36,214 bases of DNA from a virus. Each line of letters opens with the position of its first letter. Position 1 is the stretch's first letter. The stretch covers positions 1-36,214 of IMG/VR virus record IMGVR_UViG_3300012354_000009; one strand, 5' to 3'. Made by a program: the position numbers and the translations under genes. The notes under the pieces were generated by a model. The model did no database searches. It saw only the letters and a program-made list of their open reading frames with translations, and had not been told where the DNA came from. Below are positions 3,793 through 36,146 of this stretch, one piece after another.

Positions 3793-5243
3793 GAACAGAC
3801 GAGCTCCGAGCAGAGATCAAGGAGCTCATCGAACGCCGAGAGGCGATCGACACCGAGTACGCGGGGAAGCGCTTCCCGCAGGAAGTACGGGACAAGTTCA
3901 ACGTCATCTGCGACGAGATCAAGGAGAAGGAGGAGACCCTCGACGAGATCCTCCGGCGTGAGCAGATCATCGAGGAGACGGCGAAGAAGACCGGCAACAC
4001 CGAGGCCCTTGAGATGCCGAACATTTCACGGCCCGGTGCTGTGAAGGGCGACGACATCTATAACCTCGGCTCGGTCCGCCGTAGCTTCGATGACCCCGCT
4101 GTTGAGGGTGCGGAGCTGCGCGACCGTGCGCGACGGGCGATTGAGCGGGCCCGGTTCCCGCACGAGAAGGCCAAGCACGAAGAGGTGCAGGGTCATATCG
4201 AGGGGCTGGTTGAGCGGATCGACGACGAGCAGGGGTCGTTCTCGCGATACCTGCTGATGACCGGCTCGCCGGGCTACAAGACGGCGTTTACGAAGTACCT
4301 GGCCGGGCAGCCGCGGTCACAGAGCGAGGAGCAGATGCTGTTCCGTGCTGCGTCTCTGACGACGACGTCCGGTGGTTTCGCGGTGCCGTTCGTGCTCGAC
4401 CCTTCTGTGATCCAGACCGGGTCGGGTGCGATCAACCCGTACCGGGCGATCTCAAGCGTGACCGTTCAGAACGTCGATGAGTGGCGCGGCGTGAGCTCCG
4501 CCGGCATCACGGCGTCGTTCCAGGCCGAGGCAGCAGCGGTAACCGATGCGTCGCCGACCTTGGCGCAGCCGACGGTGTCGACGGAGATGGCACGTGCGTT
4601 CGTGCCGTTCTCGATCGAGATCGGGCAGGACTGGGCGTCGTTCAGCTCGGAGATGGCCGGGATGATCCAGGACTCCAAGGACGTCCTGGAAGCAACGAAG
4701 TTCGCGGTTGGATCCGGCACCAATGAGCCGTTCGGTGTCATCACCGGCGCCACCACCGTGTTCACCGCCTCCAACACCAACTCGCTTGTGGTGGCGGACG
4801 TCTACGGTGTCCACAATGCGTTGGGTCCGCGGTTCCGCCGCGGGGCGTCGTGGACGCTCAACAACGCGGTCGCCGACCGCATTCGCCAGCTGGATACAGC
4901 CGGGGGCGCAAACCTGTGGATCGACAACCTGCAGCAGCGTTCTGCGGCAATCCCGGATAGCTTCTCGGATGGTCGCATGGGAGCGGGTCTGCTCGGCAAG
5001 CCAGCCTATGAGGCAACCGCACAGTCAGGGACGTTCACGACCGGCCAGTTGATCGGTGTGGTCGGGGACTTCTCGTACTACAAGATCGTCGACCGGGTCG
5101 GGTTGACGATCGAGACGATCCCGCATCTGTTCGGTGCGGCGCAGGGAAACCTCCCGACGATGCAGCGCGGTCTGATCGCGTACTGGCGCGTGGGCGCGAA
5201 GGTGCTTGACGCAAATGCCTTCCGCACGCTGAAGCTGGCGTGA
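3780..5243 (+). CDS. Major capsid protein, HK97 fold
   Basis: This is the shell subunit of the icosahedral head. The GTG start is supported by a strong AGGAAAGGGGG about eight bases upstream and overlaps the end of the protease gene. Residues 1 to about 70 form a charged coiled coil that would act as the built-in delta scaffold, explaining why no scaffold gene is present. Residues 71-190 are a linker with many charged positions where the protease probably cuts. The HK97 core begins near GGFAVPFVLDPS, with the P-domain and A-loop-like stretches FVPFSIEIGQDW and GSGTNEPFGVITG. The C-terminus (RGLIAYWRVGAKVLDANAFRTLKLA) is typical of this family. Confidence 0.95.
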   Translation: MAAVGTDELRAEIKELIERREAIDTEYAGKRFPQEVRDKFNVICDEIKEKEETLDEILRREQIIEETAKKTGNTEALEMPNISRPGAVKGDDIYNLGSVRRSFDDPAVEGAELRDRARRAIERARFPHEKAKHEEVQGHIEGLVERIDDEQGSFSRYLLMTGSPGYKTAFTKYLAGQPRSQSEEQMLFRAASLTTTSGGFAVPFVLDPSVIQTGSGAINPYRAISSVTVQNVDEWRGVSSAGITASFQAEAAAVTDASPTLAQPTVSTEMARAFVPFSIEIGQDWASFSSEMAGMIQDSKDVLEATKFAVGSGTNEPFGVITGATTVFTASNTNSLVVADVYGVHNALGPRFRRGASWTLNNAVADRIRQLDTAGGANLWIDNLQQRSAAIPDSFSDGRMGAGLLGKPAYEATAQSGTFTTGQLIGVVGDFSYYKIVDRVGLTIETIPHLFGAAQGNLPTMQRGLIAYWRVGAKVLDANAFRTLKLA

Positions 5244-6030: not shown

Positions 6031-6734
6031 GCGGCGCGAACGGGGGTCGACCGATGCGGCAGGGCGTGATGATCGGTGTCACCTCCGGCGAGCTATCGCG
6101 ATTCTCGGCGTTCACGACGTCACTGATCAGCGTGATGGCGACCATGCCGCCCGGATCCGGGCTCGTCTGGGCGAAAGGCGTCGACGTGTCCGGCAACTGC
6201 AACCAGCTCTGCCGGAAGACATTGGCCGGCGAGTATGAGTGGCTGTGGGTGATGGGCGATGACCATGCGTTTCCGCAGGACACGTTGGTCCGGCTGATCG
6301 CCCACGACGTAGATGTGATCGTGCCGCACTGCTTGAAGCGGTATCCGCCGTGGAAACCGGTCGTGTTTTCGCACCAGAACGAGGATGGCGCCTACGTCGT
6401 CGCGGATCTGCCGCGGAGCGGACTGGTGGAAATCCATGCAGCCGGGTCGGCGGGGATGCTGATTCGCCGCGATGTGCTTGAGGCGGTCGGTGATCCGTGG
6501 TTCACCCCCTCCCCGGATGCCCACGGGCTGAACGAGGATCTCCATTTTTGCCAGAAGGTGCGGGAGGCAGGGTTCCGGCTCTGGTGTGACCCGGAGATCA
6601 CGCTCGGCCATATCGCGTTGCACACGGTGTCGCCGGAGTGGCAGGACGGGCAGTGGCACCCGGCGGTTCTGCACGATGACACGGTGTCGATGCTGTACCG
6701 GCGACCCGATGTTCCGGTGGCGGTTTCGGCGTGA
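6027..6734 (+). CDS. GT-A type glycosyltransferase
   Basis: This enzyme likely moves a sugar from a nucleotide-sugar donor to a phage or host acceptor. The 235 residues show a Rossmann-like start (GVMIGVTSGELS), a metal-binding acidic pair in WLWVMGDDHAF (D78-D79), a conserved AGSAGMLIRRDVLEAVG segment (about 139-155), the NEDLHFCQKVREAGF acidic motif (E170-D171), and H195 as a possible extra metal ligand. This order matches GT2-like phage glycosyltransferases. The GTG start overlaps the previous stop; an ATG at 6054 is an alternative. Its place between capsid and tail genes points to glycosylation of a virion protein, which is inference. Confidence 0.8.
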   Translation: MSGANGGRPMRQGVMIGVTSGELSRFSAFTTSLISVMATMPPGSGLVWAKGVDVSGNCNQLCRKTLAGEYEWLWVMGDDHAFPQDTLVRLIAHDVDVIVPHCLKRYPPWKPVVFSHQNEDGAYVVADLPRSGLVEIHAAGSAGMLIRRDVLEAVGDPWFTPSPDAHGLNEDLHFCQKVREAGFRLWCDPEITLGHIALHTVSPEWQDGQWHPAVLHDDTVSMLYRRPDVPVAVSA

Positions 6735-11237: not shown

Positions 11238-12314
11238 ATGGCGCGGCTCCTTCGATCTACAGCACAGTCTGTTCTCCGCAAGCCGGCTGTAGTTGCACCA
11301 GCGATCACGTTCTCACCGGTTCGGGTGCGGCTGGCTCCGGCACCGGGGCAGGCGCGGAAGCCACACTCGAGGCTTGGTTCACCGACCGTCGTCGCCGCGT
11401 CGGTCACGTTCCGGCCGATCGCGTCGAAGCTAGCCAGGCCACCACGATCCTCGCAGCACACACTCAGCAGGCTTCAACCACCGGCGGTTTTCGGTGCGGT
11501 AGCGACACCGTTCCTGGCCGCCCCGGTTACGGTCAGGATTACCCGGGCGAAGCCGCCGCCGCGTACCGACTTCCGGCTCGCCCCACCCGCGGTTGTGGCG
11601 GGGGCGATCACGTTCCGACCGCTCGCAGTGTCGATAGCGGAGTGGAAGGCTCCGCGGCTCACACGCAGCACGGTCAGGCCGCCGACGGTTGTCACAGCGG
11701 CCGGGGTCCTCGCACCGTTCGCCCCGGTCACGATCAGGTTGGCGCGGCCGTTGGCATCACGCCGGAATACCTACAAGCTGCGTGGGCCGGCGATCCTTGG
11801 AGCGAGTGTCGTCTTCGGCCCGCTCGAAGTGCGGTTGGCCCGGACGCCCCCTCAGGCGCGGAAGACCACCAGTCGGCTCCAACCCCCGGCGAGCCTCGCC
11901 GTCGTCGTACAGGCGCTCCTAGCGCCGATCACGACCCGTCTAGCCCGAGTCAAGCGCATCCCGCGCGCACAAACCAGGCTCAGACCGCCAGCGGTCGTTG
12001 GTGCATCGGTCACGTTTCGGCCACTGGCTATCAAACTCGTCCGGCGGCCACGGCAAGCCGGCGCCGCGAAGAGCATCGTCGGCAAGCTCATCAGTGGGCT
12101 CGCGCAGGCCATCCCGTCGTTCTGGCTCGAGGGCGACCAGGCAAGCGCAACCTTCGACGGCGACCAGGCGGCAGGGTCGATGGATGACCTAATGACCGTC
12201 GCCGTGATGGATGCCGACTCGGGCGAGGCGAGCATGGACACCAGTGCGGGGGCGCAAGGGATCCTGTTCGATTACGGTGCCCGTTACTACGGCGGCGGGA
12301 GCTACAGGGGCTAA
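11238..12314 (+). CDS. Highly basic protein of eight ~33-residue Pro/Arg repeats
   Basis: A 358-residue protein. Residues 13-279 are eight tandem units of 32-35 residues with consensus L-x-PPAVV-x-A-x-VTFRPL, then two to four strand residues ending LAR, a Pro/Arg loop and a closing SR. Only three acidic residues occur before residue 298, against dozens of Arg/Lys. The last 60 residues are the opposite: acidic, with DGDQ, MDDLM and a Gly/Tyr-rich end. The unit suggests a beta-hairpin or solenoid repeat. Other frames also stay open here because of the GC-rich repeats, but this frame has the repeat and the TAATG junction with the next gene. No family is recognised. A virion-associated or DNA/polyanion-binding role is a guess. 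Confidence 0.75.
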   Translation: MARLLRSTAQSVLRKPAVVAPAITFSPVRVRLAPAPGQARKPHSRLGSPTVVAASVTFRPIASKLARPPRSSQHTLSRLQPPAVFGAVATPFLAAPVTVRITRAKPPPRTDFRLAPPAVVAGAITFRPLAVSIAEWKAPRLTRSTVRPPTVVTAAGVLAPFAPVTIRLARPLASRRNTYKLRGPAILGASVVFGPLEVRLARTPPQARKTTSRLQPPASLAVVVQALLAPITTRLARVKRIPRAQTRLRPPAVVGASVTFRPLAIKLVRRPRQAGAAKSIVGKLISGLAQAIPSFWLEGDQASATFDGDQAAGSMDDLMTVAVMDADSGEASMDTSAGAQGILFDYGARYYGGGSYRG

Positions 12315-13636
12315 TGGCGAGGCTGCCCACCATCAATGGTGATAACGGCGCATGGGGGACCGTGCTCAACGAGTTCCTTAGCGTGGCCCACGGCACGGAC
12401 GGGAATATCAAGAGCGCCCCCGCTACCGCCCGGATTCGTCCGAAGCGGATCGCGACGACCATGTTCACGAGGTTCCAGGCTGGGCACGGCTTCTTCTTAA
12501 GCGGACCGGGTACGTTCACAGATCCCGAGACGTCATCCTTTGTGCATGGCTCGCAGTCCGTGAAGGTCACCACGGACGGCGCAGGTGGGGTGGCTTTCAT
12601 CAAGAAGAACTCGATCTCCCCGACTCTCGACCTGACGGGGAAGATGGTCCGAGTATGGGTGCGCCTGCCCGTTACCTCTGACATCACGAACATCGCGACG
12701 ATAACGCTCTATGTCTCAAGTGACAACGTCGCGTCGAACTACTATCAGAAGGAATTCGGGAACCTCGGGACCCCGACACAACGGCACTTCATCAGTGCGG
12801 ACAACGACTGGACGGGCGTCACCTTCTCGTTCGGGGAATTTACAGTTGTTGGTTCGCCGAACCGGGCGGCTATCAACTCGTTCTGGCTTCGCGTGCAGGA
12901 TCAGAACGGGCAAGCGATCCAAGTGCAGTTCGGCGGCATCGAGCTGGTCCCCGGGCCCGCGGCAGGGATAGTGTCGCTGACGTTCGACGACGGCTGGGCC
13001 ACCCAGTACACCAACGCGCGGGCCAAGCTCTCGCAGTACCGCTACCCGGCCACGACGTACATCATCCGGGACCTCGTGGACACGACCGGCTACATGTCAC
13101 TCGGGCAGATCCAGGCGCTGCACGACCTGCACGGCTGGGACGTCAGCGCCCACGCGGACACCGTGGCGAACCACAACCTGTCCAGTGGCTTCGCGTCGCT
13201 GTCGGCCACGGAGATAGAGGCCGAGATGCTGGAGATCCAGGCGTGGCTCATGCAGGCCGGCTTCAACGGGTCGAACCACCTCGCGCTGCCGAAGGGCGAG
13301 CACAACTCCACGGTCTACAAGTACGCGCGGAGGTACTTCCTCAGCACCCGCACGACCTACAGCCTCTCGCGGGAGACCTACCCGCCGGCGGACTGGAACA
13401 AGCTCCGGGTCTTCAACACGGACAACACCACCACGTTCGTGCAAGTGCAGACCGCTATTACGCGGGCTGTGGCGAACAAGGAATGGCTGATCCTCGTGTT
13501 CCACGACATCACCAGCGGTGCGGCTAGTGCGAGTACGCAGATGACGTCCACGATCTTTAACCAGATAGTGGATGAGATCGCGACCCAGGGACTCGCGGTC
13601 CGCACGGTAGGCGATGTGGCCGAGAACGGCATGTAA
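12314..13636 (+). CDS. Virion-associated polysaccharide deacetylase (NodB/CE4)
   Basis: A 440-residue protein. The N-terminus (MARLPTINGDNGAWGTVLNEFLS) is a typical tail-fibre/surface-attachment lead. Residues 50-212 are a beta-sandwich, carbohydrate-binding-like domain. Residues 219-440 are a NodB domain, which removes acetyl groups from glycans: TFDDG (D225-D226), histidines H280 and H287, a PKGE element (326-329) and LVFHD (H397). The spacing of the two histidines is seven rather than the usual four, so metal binding may be arranged differently. Likely a depolymerase-like enzyme acting on host capsule or wall polymer during adsorption. The ATG overlaps the preceding TAA. Confidence 0.85.
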   Translation: MARLPTINGDNGAWGTVLNEFLSVAHGTDGNIKSAPATARIRPKRIATTMFTRFQAGHGFFLSGPGTFTDPETSSFVHGSQSVKVTTDGAGGVAFIKKNSISPTLDLTGKMVRVWVRLPVTSDITNIATITLYVSSDNVASNYYQKEFGNLGTPTQRHFISADNDWTGVTFSFGEFTVVGSPNRAAINSFWLRVQDQNGQAIQVQFGGIELVPGPAAGIVSLTFDDGWATQYTNARAKLSQYRYPATTYIIRDLVDTTGYMSLGQIQALHDLHGWDVSAHADTVANHNLSSGFASLSATEIEAEMLEIQAWLMQAGFNGSNHLALPKGEHNSTVYKYARRYFLSTRTTYSLSRETYPPADWNKLRVFNTDNTTTFVQVQTAITRAVANKEWLILVFHDITSGAASASTQMTSTIFNQIVDEIATQGLAVRTVGDVAENGM

Positions 13637-24650: not shown

Positions 24651-24766
24651 GGCGACCCCGCGTGTGGGACATTGTGTGTCGCCACATCTGGCGTTGCCGG
24701 GTCGTCTATTACATCGCGCTCATCACAACGATCTCGCTGGTCCTTCAGATCGTCTGGGGGCGGTGA
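24647..24766 (+). CDS. Small single-span membrane protein
   Basis: A 39-residue protein from a GTG overlapping the previous stop. The N-terminus is basic ([16 protein letters not shown]) and residues 19-36 form a membrane helix ([19 protein letters not shown]). It belongs to the lysis cluster; the exact role (lysis regulator or accessory) is unknown. Confidence 0.55.
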
Positions 24767-25233
24767 TGCGGGTTGTTGGCGCGTTCCTCGCTGTTGTCAT
24801 CGCCTCAGTGGTGATGGGTGTCCTGTTGAAGCAGCAGATCGACCAGCGCGGCGAAATCATCAAGCTGAAGCGGCAGGTTGTCCACGTAACCCGGGTGATC
24901 GAGGGGAAGCGAGGTCCTGCCGGGGTGGGGAACATCGGCGCGCGTGGCAAGCGTGGAGCGGCTGGCCCGCGAGGGAAGAAGGGGGCGCCGGGCTCGCGCG
25001 GTGCCCGAGGCGCCAGAGGCACTCGAGGCGCTCGAGGCTCCCGCGGTGCCCGGGGAGCCGATGGGCCAGCCGGCGTAGCCGGTGCGGCAGGGCCTCGCGG
25101 CCCCGCAGGCCCGCAGGGGCCACCAGGCCCACGAGGACCAGCATCGCCACCCGGTTCTCCCGGACCCCCAGGATCTCCAGGACCCCCATCGAGGCCACCA
25201 TGCAAACCGAGGCCACACAAACCATGCCCATGA
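24766..25233 (+). CDS. Membrane-anchored collagen-like protein
   Basis: A 155-residue protein. The ATG shares a base with the previous TGA, and an N-terminal helix (residues 3-21, [19 protein letters not shown]) anchors it. A short coiled coil ([17 protein letters not shown]) leads into Gly-X-Y repeats at about 47-140 ([28 protein letters not shown]), followed by a Pro/Cys tail. Collagen-like stalks are usual in phage fibres, but a membrane anchor in the lysis cluster is not. A role in lysis or at the host surface is possible. Confidence 0.7.
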
Positions 25234-26800: not shown

Positions 26801-27013
26801 GTGGCCGAGACCACGCCACTTGCCGCAGACTGCGCCGACATCACTCTTGACCTCCGCCGCCTTCAATGGCAGCTGCGCGTTGCGTTAAGACAGCTACGAG
26901 CCGAGACATCTCACCAACGAGTTCTCGTTGCTCAGCTAGCAGCCCGGCTAGATCCGCCAGCGTGTCCCGCACCTCTAGCAGTACCGCTTCATCTGGTCGC
27001 GGGCGATCAGTGA
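26801..27013 (+). CDS. Small ORF antisense to the repressor gene
   Basis: A 70-codon frame from GTG with a strong AAGGAGGA four bases upstream. The first 13 codons lie before the repressor's 3' end; the rest is antisense to it. The product is helical and Arg/Leu-rich (LDLRRLQWQLRVALRQLRAE). The ribosome binding site is the main support; the composition may simply mirror the repressor. Antisense transcription here could modulate the repressor. Confidence 0.4.
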   Translation: MAETTPLAADCADITLDLRRLQWQLRVALRQLRAETSHQRVLVAQLAARLDPPACPAPLAVPLHLVAGDQ

Positions 27014-27251
27014 CGTATTCCCGGAACAGGTCTGGGCCGATCGTCTCCCCGTAGATCTCGGAGGCGTAGGTAGCGAGTTTCTGCCGGTTCTCCCGACCGG
27101 GCCTCGCATGATGGTTCAGCCAACGGTTCACCGTCTCCCTCGGTGTTCCGAGGGTCGCCGCTAGCCCTTCCTGGTCTGTTTCGGCTGCCCCGATCAGCGT
27201 GGCGATTCGCTCGCTGAGTGGGAGCGCCGCGAGCTCCTCCCGCTGAGTCAC
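26841..27251 (-). CDS. XRE-type repressor (immunity repressor candidate)
   Basis: A 136-residue protein from a GTG on the - strand. The HTH is at about residues 25-52 (DQEGLAATLGTPRETVNRWLNHHARPG), with a C-terminal coiled coil (VRDTLADLAGLLAEQRELVGEM) that would dimerise it. It would bind the CACGTG palindromes and hold the lysogenic state. The start chosen lies within one of these palindromes, eight bases after a TAGAGG box, so the mRNA may be leaderless; an in-frame GTG at 27314 would add 21 residues. It is transcribed away from the early operon. Confidence 0.75.
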   Translation of the reverse strand: MTQREELAALPLSERIATLIGAAETDQEGLAATLGTPRETVNRWLNHHARPGRENRQKLATYASEIYGETIGPDLFREYVTDRPRPDEAVLLEVRDTLADLAGLLAEQRELVGEMSRLVAVLTQRAAAIEGGGGQE

Positions 27252-27257
27252 GTGACT
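27246..27257. promoter_or_regulatory. Operator-like palindrome 1
   Basis: AGTCACGTGACT, a perfect 12-base palindrome. The central GTG on the - strand is the proposed repressor start codon, so a bound protein would block both transcription start and translation start. Confidence 0.6.
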
Positions 27258-27263
27258 ACCCTC

Positions 27264-27286
27264 TAGGAAAAGACGAACGGATACAA
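27264..27286 (-). promoter_or_regulatory. Weak promoter for the repressor gene (minus strand)
   Basis: On the - strand TAGAGG (27269-27264) may be the -10 box, with CTTGTA (27287-27282) or TTGTAT as a poor -35. Eight bases separate the box from the repressor GTG, as in the divergent promoter, giving a leaderless mRNA. Confidence 0.4.
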
Positions 27287-27297
27287 GTGACTCACCC

Positions 27298-27326
27298 TTG
27301 ACAAACCGAGTCACGTGACTTACTCT
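27298..27326 (+). promoter_or_regulatory. Strong early promoter with an operator in its spacer
   Basis: TTGACA (27298-27303) and TACTCT (27321-27326) are separated by exactly 17 bases. The spacer holds the second copy of the AGTCACGTGACT palindrome. Transcription should begin at about the GTG of the XRE gene, so the mRNA is leaderless. Confidence 0.75.
27309..27320. promoter_or_regulatory. Operator-like palindrome 2
   Basis: A second perfect AGTCACGTGACT, filling the space between -35 and -10 of the early promoter. A protein bound here would block RNA polymerase directly. Confidence 0.65.
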
Positions 27327-27329
27327 CCC

Positions 27330-27340
27330 GTCACGTGAGT
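27330..27340. promoter_or_regulatory. Operator-like palindrome 3, containing a start codon
   Basis: GTCACGTGAGT is a one-mismatch copy with a perfect TCACGTGA core. The GTG inside it is the start codon of the + strand XRE gene. A half-like GTGACTCAC also lies at 27287-27295. Confidence 0.55.
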
Positions 27341-27658
27341 ACTGCCCCTGTCACAGAGCACCGCTATCACGAGAACGGCGAGAAGATCCGCCGCGCCCGG
27401 GAAAGAGTCCCGAGCCCTCGTGATGGCGGACGCCCGATCAGCCAAGAGGACTTCGCCCCGATCCTCGGTGCGAGCCGTCGGCATCTGATCCGCCTCGAGA
27501 ACGGCGAGCAGCGCCCGAGCGGCTCCCTGCGGGACCGGATCGTTGAGATCACCGGCACCGAGGAGCAGATCGAGGCCGACGACGACGAGGAGGAGGAAGA
27601 CGCGTTGGAAGCCTGGCTCCTCCGATCAGTCTGCAAGCTCAGGGAGCAGGCGGCGTGA
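27335..27658 (+). CDS. XRE-type early regulator
   Basis: A 107-residue protein whose GTG lies eight bases after the -10 box, consistent with a leaderless mRNA. The HTH spans about residues 35-60 (ISQEDFAPILGASRRHLIRLENG); the segment near 80-90 is very acidic (EADDDEEEEDALE). First gene of the early operon and divergent to the repressor, so a Cro-like counter-regulator is likely. Which of the two XRE proteins acts as the repressor is inference from strand and context. Confidence 0.75.
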   Translation: MSTAPVTEHRYHENGEKIRRARERVPSPRDGGRPISQEDFAPILGASRRHLIRLENGEQRPSGSLRDRIVEITGTEEQIEADDDEEEEDALEAWLLRSVCKLREQAA

Positions 27659-28041
27659 TCCTCACCCTCGCCGCCTTCACAGCCGCCCTCTCGCTCGTCG
27701 CGGGGAAGCCCGTCACGCTCACCATCATTCCCGGGTCCCCGCAACAGTTCGCGTCGACCGCCGACCTCGGCGGGACCCGTATCGACATCGGTGAGGGTGC
27801 CCTCACGGACGCACGACACGGCAACGGGCCGGGGCTCCTCATCGCCCTCCATGAGGTTGGTCATCTCACGGGGATCAGCAATGAGGCGCAGGCGACCTGC
27901 TACGGACTCGCTCGTCTCCGCCCGTTCCTGCGTCGGTATTTCCACATGGGGGCGCGGCGGGTGGAGCGGCAGTTCATGGATGCCCGGGCGTTCATGCGGA
28001 CGGCGCTCGGTGCTAGCTACCAGTGCGGGAGCGTCCGATGA
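27655..28041 (+). CDS. HExxH metallopeptidase-like protein 1
   Basis: A 128-residue protein from a GTG overlapping the previous stop. A hydrophobic N-terminus (ILTLAAFTAALSLVAG) may be a signal or anchor. The zinc motif is LHEVGH (residues 65-70), with a downstream glutamate in NEAQATCYGLARL as third ligand, a gluzincin pattern like ImmA/IrrE. Proteins of this kind beside XRE regulators often cleave repressors; here the target is unknown. Confidence 0.65.
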   Translation: MILTLAAFTAALSLVAGKPVTLTIIPGSPQQFASTADLGGTRIDIGEGALTDARHGNGPGLLIALHEVGHLTGISNEAQATCYGLARLRPFLRRYFHMGARRVERQFMDARAFMRTALGASYQCGSVR

Positions 28042-28475
28042 GTCTCTACGAGAAGAACATCGAGCGCGAAGCACACATCGCCTACCTTTGTCTCAACAAC
28101 GAAGTCGACTGGCAGTGGCGCGGGCGACATGGACGAGCTCAGTACGCGCATCCGCGAAAGGGCGAGTCGGCGGTCGTCCATCTCCCACAGATCCGCGGGC
28201 AGATGACCTACTTCGTCGCCCTTCACGAACTCGGCCACGTCCTCTCGTCTGGCAACCGATATCTCCGCACACTGGAGTCTGAAGCTGATGCGTGGCAGTG
28301 GGCACTTGCGAATACCGAAGAGGAGCCGACGAAGGCGACACTCAAGGGCATTCGGCGGCGCCTGAGTAGCTACGTCGCCAAGGCCATCCGCTCACCCAGG
28401 ATGCATCTGCCGGATGAGGACAGTGATTTCGAGCGGTTCTGGCGGTGGCTGAGCGAGGCTGCGCGTGACTATTAA
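28038..28475 (+). CDS. HExxH metallopeptidase-like protein 2
   Basis: A 145-residue protein from an ATG overlapping the previous stop. FVALHELGHVLSSGN carries the zinc site, and ESEADAWQWALANTEE supplies the downstream glutamate, as in M78-type (ImmA/IrrE) proteases. It has no membrane segment. It lies after another HExxH protein, so the two may work on one substrate or as a pair. Confidence 0.65.
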   Translation: MSLYEKNIEREAHIAYLCLNNEVDWQWRGRHGRAQYAHPRKGESAVVHLPQIRGQMTYFVALHELGHVLSSGNRYLRTLESEADAWQWALANTEEEPTKATLKGIRRRLSSYVAKAIRSPRMHLPDEDSDFERFWRWLSEAARDY

Positions 28476-30631: not shown

Positions 30632-30705
30632 AAGAGAGCTGTGCTTAACAGATGGTCGCGACGCTCTCACGTCCTCAGTACCACTGTCAGAACAGACGGT
30701 CAGAC

Positions 30706-31728
30706 ATGAGCGTCTGGGTCTACGCCTTTGGCGAAAAGACCGGGGCGGACATCAAGATCGGCCACACGAAGGAGAGAACGCTTCGGAAACGCCTCCGGGA
30801 TGTCAATAAGGAGCAGACGACCTCGGAGGAGTACGTCCCCCTCGTCGCCGTCCATGCCACGACAAAGGACGAGGATTACATCAAGACGAGGTTTGCGGTA
30901 CACCGTCGACCCGACAAGGGGGGCCGGACGGAATACTTCTATCCGGCCGAGCCTATCGTGCATTACATCAACTGGCTGCGTTCTCAATGGTGGTCATCGC
31001 TGTCAATCGACGACGATCGCATGGACGCGCACATGGCGGACGCAGAACATTGGCTCCCGGATGGGAATGGCCGCGCGATTGCACCACCACCTTGGGACCC
31101 GTTGAAAATCATCCAAGACTACGAGGACCCCTCCGATGTGCTCTACAACACGCCTTGGTCGTGGATGGCCAGTCAGAAGGCGGGCGTCCAAGATTTCTTC
31201 ACCCCTCCTGGCCCGGATATGCCAGAGCCCAACATCATCGGCGCGGCGCGCGAGGCCATGGGCGGGATTGATCTCGATGCGGCCTCCCATCCTCTCGCGA
31301 ACCGCACCCACAAGATCCCCGACTATTTCCACACCGGACGTAGTGCGTTCCACAACGACTGGTATGGCCGGGTCTGGCTGAACCCGCCATACGGCAATAA
31401 CGCGCCCTGGTTCGAGCGGATCCTCCACTTCGTCGAAGCCGGGACCGTGGAGCAGCTCTGCATGTTGAGCCCGATGTGGGTGTTCCAGACGGCAATCGCG
31501 CGGCCAGTGATGCAGCTTGCAAGTGGCCTGATCCTTCTCAACCCGACACCAAAGTTTTGGGGCAACGCGGACCCGAACAAGACCGGGAAGAACTTCCCGC
31601 ACGGTGTCATCTACATCGGACCATACGCGAAGCGGTTCAATCGAGCCTTCGCCCCCTATGGCTTCCCGACACGGCCCGCGTGGGAGGACATAGAGGAGGA
31701 GTTCATCCCCGAAGGCGAGGCCGCATGA
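30706..31728 (+). CDS. Fusion of GIY-YIG-like (T5orf172) and Dam-type adenine methyltransferase domains
   Basis: A 340-residue protein. Residues 4-90 match the T5orf172/MUG113 type of GIY-YIG-like domain (WVYAFGEK, DIKIGHT, ERTLRKRLRDV, GGRTEYFYP). Residues 180-330 match phage N6-adenine methyltransferases (GGIDLDAASHPLANR, GRVWLNPPYGNNAPWF; catalytic NPPY at 226-229). An in-frame ATG at 30652 would extend the N-terminus by 18 residues with no better binding site, so the ATG at 30706 is used. The role may be self-protection of phage DNA, or restriction-like targeting, not proven. Confidence 0.75.
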   Translation: MSVWVYAFGEKTGADIKIGHTKERTLRKRLRDVNKEQTTSEEYVPLVAVHATTKDEDYIKTRFAVHRRPDKGGRTEYFYPAEPIVHYINWLRSQWWSSLSIDDDRMDAHMADAEHWLPDGNGRAIAPPPWDPLKIIQDYEDPSDVLYNTPWSWMASQKAGVQDFFTPPGPDMPEPNIIGAAREAMGGIDLDAASHPLANRTHKIPDYFHTGRSAFHNDWYGRVWLNPPYGNNAPWFERILHFVEAGTVEQLCMLSPMWVFQTAIARPVMQLASGLILLNPTPKFWGNADPNKTGKNFPHGVIYIGPYAKRFNRAFAPYGFPTRPAWEDIEEEFIPEGEAA

Positions 31729-32726
31729 GCTTCACCTTCCGCCCAGCCCGACGCGAGAACGTGCCGCTCCTCATCGGGGTAGCCGGAGGCACCGGCAGCG
31801 GCAAGACGTACTCGGCGCTCCTCCTCGCCCGCGGCATCGCGGGCGGCCAACCGTTCGCCATCGTTGACACCGAGAACGGCCGGGCGAAGCACTACGCCGA
31901 CCTGTTCCCCGAGATGCGTCACGGCGAGATCCACGCACCGTTCCGGCCGGGGAAGTACGCCGACGCGATCCAGGCGGGTGCCGCCGAGTACCCTGTCGTC
32001 GTCGTTGACTCCATGAGCCACGAGTGGGCTGGTGATGGTGGCTGTCTCGACTGGCACGACGAGATCATGGCAGGCGACCAGAAGAAGAACCTGGCCGCGT
32101 GGATCGAGCCGAAGCGAGCGCACAAGGCGATGGTGACCCGGCTGCTTCAGGTGAGCGCGCACGTCATTCTGTGCTTCCGGGCTGAGCCGAAGGTCGAGGC
32201 GGTCCGTGAGGGCGGTCAGACGAAGATCGTGCCGAAGGCGTCGCTTACCGGTCTGAACGGGTGGCTGCCGATCAGCGAGAAGATGCTCCCGTATGAGTTG
32301 ACGGCGTCGTTCCTGCTGATGGCGGACACGCCGGGTGTGCCGAAGCCGATCAAGCTACAGGAGCAGCATCGGGCGCTTGTGCCGCTCGACACGCCGTTGG
32401 CGGAGGAGACGGGCCGGCGCCTCGCAGAGTGGGCGCGTGGTGGGGCGGTGTCAGAGCCGGACGGAGGAACTGACCCCTCCTCGGGAACGTCCGGCTCTGA
32501 GATCGCCTCGCTAACCGAGCGGCTCACCGGTCTCCTCGTCGACGCCGGCAAGGCGAACATGGTGGGCCGGATCGCGACGAACCGGGAGCGTCACCGCGAG
32601 GACCCTGAGAAGCATGAGGCGTGGCTTCGGCAGCAGGTGGAGAAGGCGGCGGCTGCGATGCCTGACGGTCAGACCGCGCTGACCGTGCCGGCGGAGGTTC
32701 GGCACCGGATGGAGCAGGGCGTCTAG
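31725..32726 (+). CDS. Sak4-like RecA-fold ATPase
   Basis: A 333-residue protein from an ATG overlapping the methyltransferase stop. Walker A is GGTGSGKT (21-28); Walker B is VVVVDSMSHEW (D95). The length and the PKASLTGLNGWLPISEKMLPYE segment fit the Sak4 phage recombination ATPases that work with annealing proteins. The C-terminal 80 residues are a separate helical part. Together with the PD-(D/E)XK exonuclease it would drive phage homologous recombination. Confidence 0.8.
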   Translation: MSFTFRPARRENVPLLIGVAGGTGSGKTYSALLLARGIAGGQPFAIVDTENGRAKHYADLFPEMRHGEIHAPFRPGKYADAIQAGAAEYPVVVVDSMSHEWAGDGGCLDWHDEIMAGDQKKNLAAWIEPKRAHKAMVTRLLQVSAHVILCFRAEPKVEAVREGGQTKIVPKASLTGLNGWLPISEKMLPYELTASFLLMADTPGVPKPIKLQEQHRALVPLDTPLAEETGRRLAEWARGGAVSEPDGGTDPSSGTSGSEIASLTERLTGLLVDAGKANMVGRIATNRERHREDPEKHEAWLRQQVEKAAAAMPDGQTALTVPAEVRHRMEQGV

Positions 32727-34205: not shown

Positions 34206-34585
34206 CGGACTACTTCAGCGTTGAGCAGTTGCGAGAGTTCGAGGAACTATTCGCCTCGCCTGAATGCAGCCGAACCGTGGCCCTTGTTGGTCGCGCTCTG
34301 TTGCGCGAATACCAACTCGTCCTCGTGCGGACCAAGAAACTGGAGGAGTTGCTAGAAGAGGGGCGCATTTACGTCCAGCATCTACTCGACACATCGACAG
34401 ATGTGGAGATAGCAGAATATGTGGCGGCGCTGGAGGAACGGAATGACTCGCTAGAGAAGGCGCTCGAGAATCTATGCGGTGATGTCTACCTCTACGGTTT
34501 GCGTGAAATCACTGAGCAACAGCTGCGGGAGTCGTCAGGCAAGGCTCAGGATGTGCTGAGAGTCGCCCGGGAAGGGCTTCTGTGA
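34202..34585 (+). CDS. Coiled-coil protein before the integrase
   Basis: A 127-residue protein from GTG. Long helices with heptads (KKLEELLEEGRIYVQHLL, YVAALEERNDSLEKALENLC); the first 20 residues (VEQLREFEELFASPE) and the ending REGLL echo the LuxR-type protein. Tightly coupled to the LuxR-type gene and the integrase by 4-base overlaps. Function unknown; an accessory or directionality factor is possible. Confidence 0.6.
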   Translation: MTDYFSVEQLREFEELFASPECSRTVALVGRALLREYQLVLVRTKKLEELLEEGRIYVQHLLDTSTDVEIAEYVAALEERNDSLEKALENLCGDVYLYGLREITEQQLRESSGKAQDVLRVAREGLL

Positions 34586-35532
34586 GCGCCGCCGCCGCGA
34601 ACGTCGTAGGCTTCGACCCCCTGCGCGACAAGAGCTACCAGCAGACCAGGCTGGGCCGCTCCGTGGCCGACTTCCTAGCCTGGCTTGAGACCGGTGGGGC
34701 CGCGGAAAGAACGCTCGACCAATACGAGCGGGACCTCGCACGCGGCTGCCTCATGTTCCCCGATAAAAGCATCGAGGACTTCGAGGACGCCGACATGCTC
34801 CACGTCGCCCGATCGTTCCAGCCGAAAGAGCGACGGGTCAGGGTCGCGGCGTACAAGTCGTTCTTCAAGTGGGCGGTCGCGTCGCGGCTCCGGGTGTCGA
34901 ATCCGTGTGACGCTCTGCCGCGGATCAAGCCGCAGCCGAAGAAGGTGTTCGACCTGTTCGCCGAACCAGAGATCACCGCGCTGTGCGGGCTGCCGGTCCG
35001 CGACGGTGCCCTGTTTGCGCTGATGTTCGAGACCGGGGCGCGCAAGGCCGACTGCCGCCACTTCCGGTTTCGCAACTGGCTGCCGGACGCGACCCCCGAC
35101 GCGCCGTACGGGATGCTCGTCTTCCACGAAGGGAAGGGCGGGAAGGATCGGCAGGGTCCGGCACGGGAGGTCGTCGCGCGGAAACTGTCAGAGCGCGCGC
35201 TCGTCGAGGGGCTGGCGCCACCAGATCATCTCGGGTACTCGCGTCCCGGCGGCGGCCACAGCATCAGCCGAAAGACCCCGATCGGCGACACGTCGTTCAA
35301 CACATGGTGGGTGCGATGCCTCGCCGAAGCCGGTGTCCGCTACCGCAATCCTCACCTGACACGGCATACGTTCGCGACGAACTACCTCCGCGGCCGTGGC
35401 CGGCTCGAGACGCTGCAGCTCGTGTTGGGACACGAGTCGATCCAGACGACAGCGGACCTGTATGGGCACCTCGATATGCGGGACGTCGCGGTGGATATGC
35501 GTCTCGTCTCTACGGAATCCGACCGGAGCTAG
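34582..35532 (+). CDS. int: Tyrosine site-specific integrase
   Basis: This recombinase joins attP and attB. The 316 residues hold an N-terminal SAM-like core-binding domain (about 25-115) and a catalytic domain with R154 (TGARKADCRHF), a lysine in EGKGGKDRQ (185 or 188), H258 and R261 in HLTRHTFATNY, H284 in VLGHESIQTT and the nucleophile Y294 (DLYGHL). No arm-binding domain is evident at the N-terminus. The GTG overlaps the preceding stop. A tRNA-3'-end sequence lies 270 bases downstream, the likely attP. Confidence 0.9.
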   Translation: MSAAAANVVGFDPLRDKSYQQTRLGRSVADFLAWLETGGAAERTLDQYERDLARGCLMFPDKSIEDFEDADMLHVARSFQPKERRVRVAAYKSFFKWAVASRLRVSNPCDALPRIKPQPKKVFDLFAEPEITALCGLPVRDGALFALMFETGARKADCRHFRFRNWLPDATPDAPYGMLVFHEGKGGKDRQGPAREVVARKLSERALVEGLAPPDHLGYSRPGGGHSISRKTPIGDTSFNTWWVRCLAEAGVRYRNPHLTRHTFATNYLRGRGRLETLQLVLGHESIQTTADLYGHLDMRDVAVDMRLVSTESDRS

Positions 35533-35535
35533 GGC

Positions 35536-35769
35536 GTGGTACCCGATCTTCGAGTAGAGGCCGAGCGCATCCTCGGAAACCCGGACCTATGGGCTTTGCA
35601 CGGTTTCGCGGATTCCGTAATCGAGTTGGCGGCCGAGGTTGGGCGGCTTGAGGGCGAACTGAAAGCGGCGCTAGAGATGCTTGCGAGTACCGAGGACGTC
35701 GAATGGCGACCCGAGGTACGAGACTTTCTGCGGGCCAGGGGTGCGAAATCCGACCGGACCGAGACGTGA
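35536..35769 (+). CDS. Small hypothetical protein after the integrase
   Basis: A 77-residue protein from a GTG with GGAGCTAGGG upstream. The sequence is helical and acidic (DLWALHGFADSVIELAAEVG, RLEGELKAALEMLASTEDVE). The GTGA at its end starts the next gene. No family recognised; could be an accessory factor of integration. Confidence 0.55.
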   Translation: MVPDLRVEAERILGNPDLWALHGFADSVIELAAEVGRLEGELKAALEMLASTEDVEWRPEVRDFLRARGAKSDRTET

Positions 35770-36146
35770 TAAATCCCTGCACACAGGCACGCAGAGGCGC
35801 CGACCAGAATCGAACTGGTGTATGCGACCTGAGCGCGGAAACCCTGTACGGAGGCGCGACGTGGACCTACTTCATCCAAGTCGACTTCGATGGGCCGATC
35901 AAGATCGGCACCGCGGCCGACCCGCAAGAGCGCCTTCAGACACTACAGACGGCGAACCCGCACGAGCTCCACCTCGTCCTCACCGTCTGGGCGCCGGCCG
36001 ATCTCGAGCGTGACCTTCACGCCAGGCTGAGCGCGCACCGGATCCGCGGCGAGTGGTTCCGGCCACACGCGGAGGTCTGGAATGCGGTCGCGGACTGTCA
36101 CGACGAGTACGTGATCGGTCGGCTGCTCGAGGAGGCTGCGGCGTGA
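35766..36146 (+). CDS. GIY-YIG-like (T5orf172/MUG113) protein
   Basis: A 126-residue protein from GTG overlapping the preceding stop. Residues about 38-110 match the T5orf172/MUG113 type: TYFIQVDFDGPIKIGTAADP, ERLQTLQTANPHELH, DLERDLHARLSAHRIRGEWF. The first 25 codons run through the tRNA-like sequence (peptide GADQNRTG), so the start region is uncertain and may be changed by integration. No catalytic metal residue can be assigned with certainty. Confidence 0.6.
   Translation: MINPCTQARRGADQNRTGVCDLSAETLYGGATWTYFIQVDFDGPIKIGTAADPQERLQTLQTANPHELHLVLTVWAPADLERDLHARLSAHRIRGEWFRPHAEVWNAVADCHDEYVIGRLLEEAAA
35795..35820 (-). other. tRNA 3'-end remnant, candidate attP core
   Basis: On the - strand the sequence reads as a tRNA T-arm (ACCAG, loop TTCGATT, CTGGT) followed by a seven-base acceptor half (CGGCGCC). 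No matching 5' half is found at the expected distance, so it is not a whole tRNA gene. A tyrosine integrase gene lies just upstream, and such phages often carry the 3' end of a tRNA as attP. Confidence 0.6.

Follow-up and report, generated by a model that had tools for sequence, protein, structure and literature searches.

The divergent XRE genes and their phage setting

The window, that is, the whole 36.2 kb virus record analysed here, contains a pair of small divergent XRE genes. The left gene (26841..27251, minus strand) encodes a protein of 136 aa, probably the lysogeny repressor, and starts at the GTG codon 27251-27249. The right gene (27335..27658, plus strand) encodes a protein of 107 aa, probably a Cro-type early repressor, and is the first of a long rightward operon. 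To the left of the pair, the translations indicate terminase, portal, capsid and tape-measure-like genes; to its right, overlapping genes form a long rightward run that carries replication genes, methyltransferases and an integrase and ends near the tyrosine integrase gene (34582-35532). An integrase is thus found together with structural genes, as in temperate phages. The phage also encodes adenine methyltransferases. In this rightward run, an open reading frame at 30652-31728 (plus strand) fuses a T5orf172 (GIY-YIG-like) domain to a Dam-type methyltransferase, and an apparent second T5orf172-like protein is encoded at the right end of the record (35703-36146, plus strand). In the structural region, 12314-13636 (plus strand) has the SLTFDDG motif and a translation that resembles a polysaccharide deacetylase; the protein may be a tail enzyme. 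Near the tail/lysis genes, 24664-25233 (plus strand) encodes a protein with collagen-like Gly-X-Y repeats and a membrane segment.

The left XRE protein matches PHROG 2328, 'transcriptional repressor' (E 5.9e-5). Its AlphaFold model (pLDDT 90.5) comprises an HTH domain and a C-terminal helix of 47 residues, which plausibly serves dimerisation. The solved folds closest to this model include P22 C2, C.AhdI and 434 Cro (probability 1.00), the best match being the DNA-binding domain of P22 C2 (probability 1.00, E 7e-3). The right XRE protein matches the Pfam families HTH_31 (E 5.1e-5) and HTH_3 (E 1.6e-4), both just under the Pfam cut-off, and its model (pLDDT 84.4) is closest to a designed HTH protein, C.BclI and HipB (probability 1.00). 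For both models, fold-match E-values stay above 0.001 despite probabilities of 1.00, presumably because the HTH domain is short. Direct searches of IMG/VR and of 50,697 phage records gave no close relative of either XRE protein, and no characterised close relative was found for either.

Two further features adjoin the pair. Directly after the right XRE gene, overlapping genes of the same operon (27655-28041 and 28038-28475, plus strand) encode small HEVGH and HELGH proteins, which are candidate antirepressor metalloproteases; the PHROG metallo-protease match is weak (E 0.047) and a Pfam search returned no ImmA/IrrE match. On the other side, an open reading frame of 70 aa (26801-27013, plus strand) runs opposite to the left XRE gene over the 3' half of the latter. 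It has a strong Shine-Dalgarno sequence (AAGGAGG) and TTGACA/TAGGAT upstream and may be a convergent antisense gene over the repressor.

Palindromes and promoters between the two genes

A sequence-only reading of the window had described two perfect palindromes and a near copy between the divergent XRE genes, the first and third containing the GTG start codons and the second lying in a 17-base promoter spacer. The coordinates confirm this description. The first putative operator, OL (AGTCACGTGACT, 27246-27257), is perfectly palindromic and spans the start codon of the left gene (GTG 27251). The second, O2 (again AGTCACGTGACT, 27309-27320), is also perfect and falls inside the rightward promoter, in the 17 bp that separate the -35 hexamer TTGACA (27298..27303, plus strand) from the -10 hexamer TACTCT (27321..27326, plus strand). 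The third, O3 (CGTCACGTGAGT, 27329-27340), has two mismatches to AGTCACGTGACT and covers the right gene's start codon (GTG 27335). A possible fourth operator (ATACAAGTGACT, 27281-27292) is weak and half-conserved, with three mismatches and one exact half-site; it overlaps TTGTAT (27286-27281, minus strand), a possible left -35.

When the 12-mer is searched with up to two mismatches through the 36.2 kb record, as the same reading had suggested, it proves confined to the switch region: all sites lie inside 95 bp, and none is found beyond OL, O2 and O3. A stoperator system of the cluster A mycobacteriophage type, where many repressor sites are spread across the genome, was ruled out on this ground. 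A pair of identical, perfect 12-bp palindromes spaced within 100 bp of each other was never produced in 150 simulations of the window with a Markov-2 model, and the window's own copies are the only such pair in the 1.39 Mb of loci fetched (see below). When palindromicity and the sharing of half-sites were scored together with fixed start codons, one of 20,000 random intergenic sequences reached the value of the window. By a loose count (up to two mismatches, anywhere in the window), three sites occur in 18 of 100 shuffles and are hence not unusual. CACGTG itself occurs 10 times in the window, and any CACGTG palindrome has GTG on both strands; what is notable is therefore the frame, the position and the lack of an alternative start.

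The latter point concerns the right gene. GTG 27335 is its sole possible start, no other in-frame ATG, GTG or TTG being present near its beginning, so that translation must start eight bases after the -10 box. Pairing with the anti-Shine-Dalgarno sequence was computed for the six switch genes of the window and of two relatives, L010 and L070, described below. For five of the six it amounts to -1.5 to -3.8 kcal/mol, as compared with -7.0 to -11.4 kcal/mol for 8 of the 11 comparison genes tested in the window; the three weaker ones are the record's first gene (-3.7), one minus-strand gene (-2.9) and a methyltransferase gene (-6.1 kcal/mol). The exception among the switch genes is the left XRE gene of the window, with a discontinuous Shine-Dalgarno match at -6.4 kcal/mol. 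The right gene thus combines a -10 box some seven bases before its only start with the lack of a Shine-Dalgarno sequence, and this combination is kept in L010 and L070. From the single start, its distance of eight bases from the -10 box and the missing Shine-Dalgarno sequence, it is very likely that the right mRNA is leaderless.

The left side is less clear. Within the weak left -10 region (27258..27265, minus strand), TAGAGG (27265-27260) stands eight bases before GTG 27251 and GAGGGT (27263-27258) six bases before it; neither is a good consensus match, and the region also resembles a poor Shine-Dalgarno sequence. An in-frame GTG is found upstream at 27314. A promoter scan at a strict threshold reported no promoter. 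It was claimed from the sequence alone that both mRNAs look leaderless and that both GTG codons stand eight bases after a -10-like box. The spacing is indeed found on both sides, although TAGAGG is a weak box that lacks the usual final T. A leaderless mRNA holds up well for the right gene, where the features recur in the relatives; for the left gene it is plausible, and less certain because of the weak -10 candidates and the match at -6.4 kcal/mol.

The same layout in two distant relatives

Relatives were gathered via the AAA protein encoded four kb downstream (31725-32726), which led to 14, then 80 uncultured phage loci, the 80 being those fetched of 555 candidates for this protein. Among the divergent XRE pairs of the fetched loci, two, L010 and L070, have the window's design, which is absent from the other pairs (L011, L013, L015, L021, L035 and L040). 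The design is thus represented by three instances only, two of them found by looking among relatives.

In L010, CGCACGTGCC covers the left GTG (4755). On the right, TTGACA (4805-4810) is followed by 17 bp, TATAAC, 8 bp and ATG 4842, which comes directly after CGCACGT; no other in-frame start is available to the right gene, and the spacer contains a GTGCGA half-site. In L070, GCGTCACGTGACGC covers the left GTG (6301), and TTGACA (6350-6355) is followed by 17 bp, CATACT, 7 bp and GTG 6386, the first in-frame start of the right gene, inside TGTCCCGTGACA; here the spacer half-site is GTGACG. The left genes of both relatives start inside the palindrome and have no Shine-Dalgarno sequence (-1.5 kcal/mol in L010 and -2.7 in L070). 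The left promoter of L070 is fair (TTGCCG-N17-CAAAGT-N7-GTG), those of the window and L010 being poor. The three phages therefore have in common a CACGTG palindrome over the left GTG, TTGACA-N17-(-10)-N7/8-start on the right, a half-site at the same place in the spacer and a site over the right start. The distances between successive operator centres are 63+20 bp in the window, 66+18 in L010 and 65+19 in L070, which places the centres of OL and O3 83, 84 and 84 bp apart, or about eight helical turns. The intergenic score with fixed starts was reached by three of 20,000 random sequences for L010 and by none for L070. Imperfect sites are those of L010 and the O2 of L070.

The layout is the same in the three phages, whereas the flanking operator bases and the XRE proteins differ. 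The operator arms of L010 are TCGCAC/GTGCGA, and the recognition helices of its two XRE proteins are nearly identical (TTRQVIMGW and TTRQVLIGW), which is what one would expect of two proteins that recognise a single set of operators. The operators of the window and L070 share GTCAC/GTGAC, and the right recognition helices of these two phages share SRRH(L/M)IR; within the window, the predicted left and right helices differ. L010 therefore departs from the window and L070 both in its operator arms and in its predicted recognition helices, and this joint difference among three members is at most suggestive.

Downstream, L070 and the window appear to share genes for a T5orf172/Dam methyltransferase, an MT-A70 protein, a DUF3799 nuclease and the AAA protein (assigned from translations in L070). 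No HEXXH protease genes adjoin the right XRE gene of L070. About 5.4 kb downstream of its switch, L070 contains an operator-like AGTCACTTGACG (11815-11826, two mismatches), possibly a second regulated site. In L010, as in the window, the left XRE gene is overlapped at its 3' end by an antisense open reading frame (4242-4463, plus strand), which may be a coincidence.

Wider searches were also performed. The DNA pattern CACGTG-N40-50-TTGACA-N17-(-10)-N3-6-CNCGTR retrieved 12 stretches from IMG/VR. A divergent XRE pair is present only in L106, which is L070's contig, and the other 11 look like chance. The same pattern gave one match in 400 genomes from the phylum of the genome that bears L023. 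Searches with the XRE proteins of L010 returned only its own contig and remote HTH proteins.

A probable immunity switch with operators on start codons

Two divergent small HTH repressor genes, separated by repeated palindromes that overlap the promoters, are the features of a CI/Cro-type region. Together with the arrangement of the sites, the single right start, the lack of a Shine-Dalgarno sequence and the conservation of the layout in two distant relatives, they suggest that the region is probably the lysis-lysogeny (immunity) switch of a temperate phage, in which the operators lie on the +1 of leaderless genes. By analogy with lambda, it can be proposed that the lytic/early operon, with a Cro-like gene at its head, is under the rightward promoter and the lysogeny repressor under the leftward one. 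A strong rightward and a weak leftward promoter would transcribe the two XRE genes divergently, and dimers of one or both XRE proteins would bind OL, O2 and O3, each protein possibly with its own preference among the sites. O2, between the -35 and the -10, and O3, on the +1 of the rightward promoter about two helical turns away, would both exclude the polymerase. Their occupation would then stop the early operon with its replication, methyltransferase and integrase genes, and would favour lysogeny. OL would lie on the +1 of the leftward gene, some eight turns from O3, and its occupation would repress the left gene. The half-conserved fourth site over the possible left -35 (27281-27286) could be a site of activation or of repression.

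Transcription of the right gene, and probably of the left one too, would begin at the start codon or within a base or two of it. The start codon of a leaderless gene is the +1, where an operator is effective, and this would account for start codons inside operators; an operator on a leaderless +1 contains the start codon, so that the half-site GTGAC(T) would double as the first codons. The further idea that binding also covers the translation start had to be given up: a repressor bound to DNA stops transcription and cannot hide a codon of the mRNA, and a leaderless mRNA contains only the 3' half of the palindrome.

It may be asked whether both sides follow this scheme. It is quite conceivable that the right gene alone is leaderless and that its left neighbour is translated from a longer mRNA, perhaps made from an upstream promoter of the lambda PRE type, with OL as an internal operator or roadblock. 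The weak left -10 candidates, the best Shine-Dalgarno pairing of the six switch genes, albeit discontinuous, and the in-frame GTG at 27314 all speak for this explanation. It fits less well with L010 and L070, whose left genes start in the palindrome yet have no Shine-Dalgarno sequence, and with the reasonable leaderless promoter of the left gene in L070. The roles of the two proteins could also be reversed, the right XRE protein being the repressor, inactivated by the ImmA-like HEXXH proteases in the manner of ICEBs1 immR-immA, and the left one an accessory regulator. The overlap of the HEVGH and HELGH genes with the right XRE operon and the weak PHROG match are in keeping with such a role. 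We consider it unlikely, however, since the same rightward run is the early operon, L070 has no such proteases beside its right XRE gene, and Pfam gave no ImmA/IrrE match.

Action of the palindromes in RNA, where O2-O3 pairing in a leadered transcript would hide the GTG, is very improbable. An 8-bp O2/O3 stem could form in an RNA begun upstream, but two copies of any palindrome can pair, and the promoter geometry would set the transcript start past O2. Moreover, the fold energy is no better than that of shuffled sequences (z -1.0, and +0.4 on the left), and L010 keeps the positions of the sites with changed and imperfect arms. Control by an RNA hairpin was therefore dropped. That the palindromes arose by chance or serve an unrelated purpose, for example as methylation or recombination sites, is hardly credible: CACGTG does occur 10 times in the window and the phage does have adenine methyltransferases, but in its extended 12-base form the palindrome is confined to this region, where it lies on both starts and in the spacer of the promoter, and relatives have the layout as well. 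The preferred interpretation thus remains a CI/Cro-type switch with its operators on leaderless starts.

Among known systems, the OR region of lambda follows the CI/Cro logic, has its three operators placed between two divergent repressor genes and contains, like the window as proposed, a leaderless repressor gene (cI). The lambda operators, of 17-18 bp, differ in that they do not include both start codons, and lambda cro has a leader. The leaderless transcription of lambda cI occurs from PRM (as cited in PMC8630535 and PMC4488713). In the immB switch of the telomere phage PY54, also with divergent repressor genes, RACE showed both the cI and the cro mRNA to be leaderless and to begin at the AUG, and Cro binds only one operator, OR3, located up to 40 bp away from the cro promoter (PMC4488713). 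In the part of the report available, the operators are not described as containing the start codons, whereas the sites of the window lie on both starts and in the spacer. The paaR2/ydaS immunity region of CP-933P from E. coli O157:H7 is a divergent CI/Cro-like pair 97 bp apart with several spaced palindromes over both promoters and a leaderless paaR2; the palindromes are of 18 bp and of other sequence, a leaderless start is reported on one side only in the part of the report available, and the operon contains toxin-antitoxin genes (PMC8630535). Control (C) proteins of restriction-modification systems, such as C.Csp231I, are small XRE proteins with a leaderless C gene and paired palindromes at its promoter (PMC4824078), and C.AhdI and C.BclI are among the fold matches of the window's proteins. 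However, these proteins autoregulate a single gene, without a divergent switch, and their half-sites are GACT-n3-AGTC (PMC4824078). Finally, one Zur operator serves the two divergent leaderless genes cg0042/cg0043 in Corynebacterium glutamicum, Zur being a host metal regulator of the Fur family and not part of a phage switch (PMC2823685).

The principle of leaderless repressor switches with operators at their promoters is therefore already known. No description of operators containing both start codons came up in searches of open-access papers, and start codons within operator palindromes on both sides, at a spacing that stays constant across three diverged phages, seem to be a new variant. 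Only tentatively can it be proposed that these phages represent a conserved class of switches, in which the operator core CAC|GTG would provide both start codons, both mRNAs would be leaderless, and operator, recognition helix and first codons would coevolve at a fixed spacing of 83-84 bp.

Leaderless repressor genes have been known singly. In this switch, the same six bases would serve both DNA recognition and the start of translation on either side, so that any change of operator specificity would have to keep a usable start codon. One way out may be that of L010, where the arms have changed and the start, an ATG, lies two bases further along. Gene callers that expect a Shine-Dalgarno sequence can misplace the starts of such genes. 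The switch would offer a clear system for studying the evolution of immunity specificity where a coding constraint applies.
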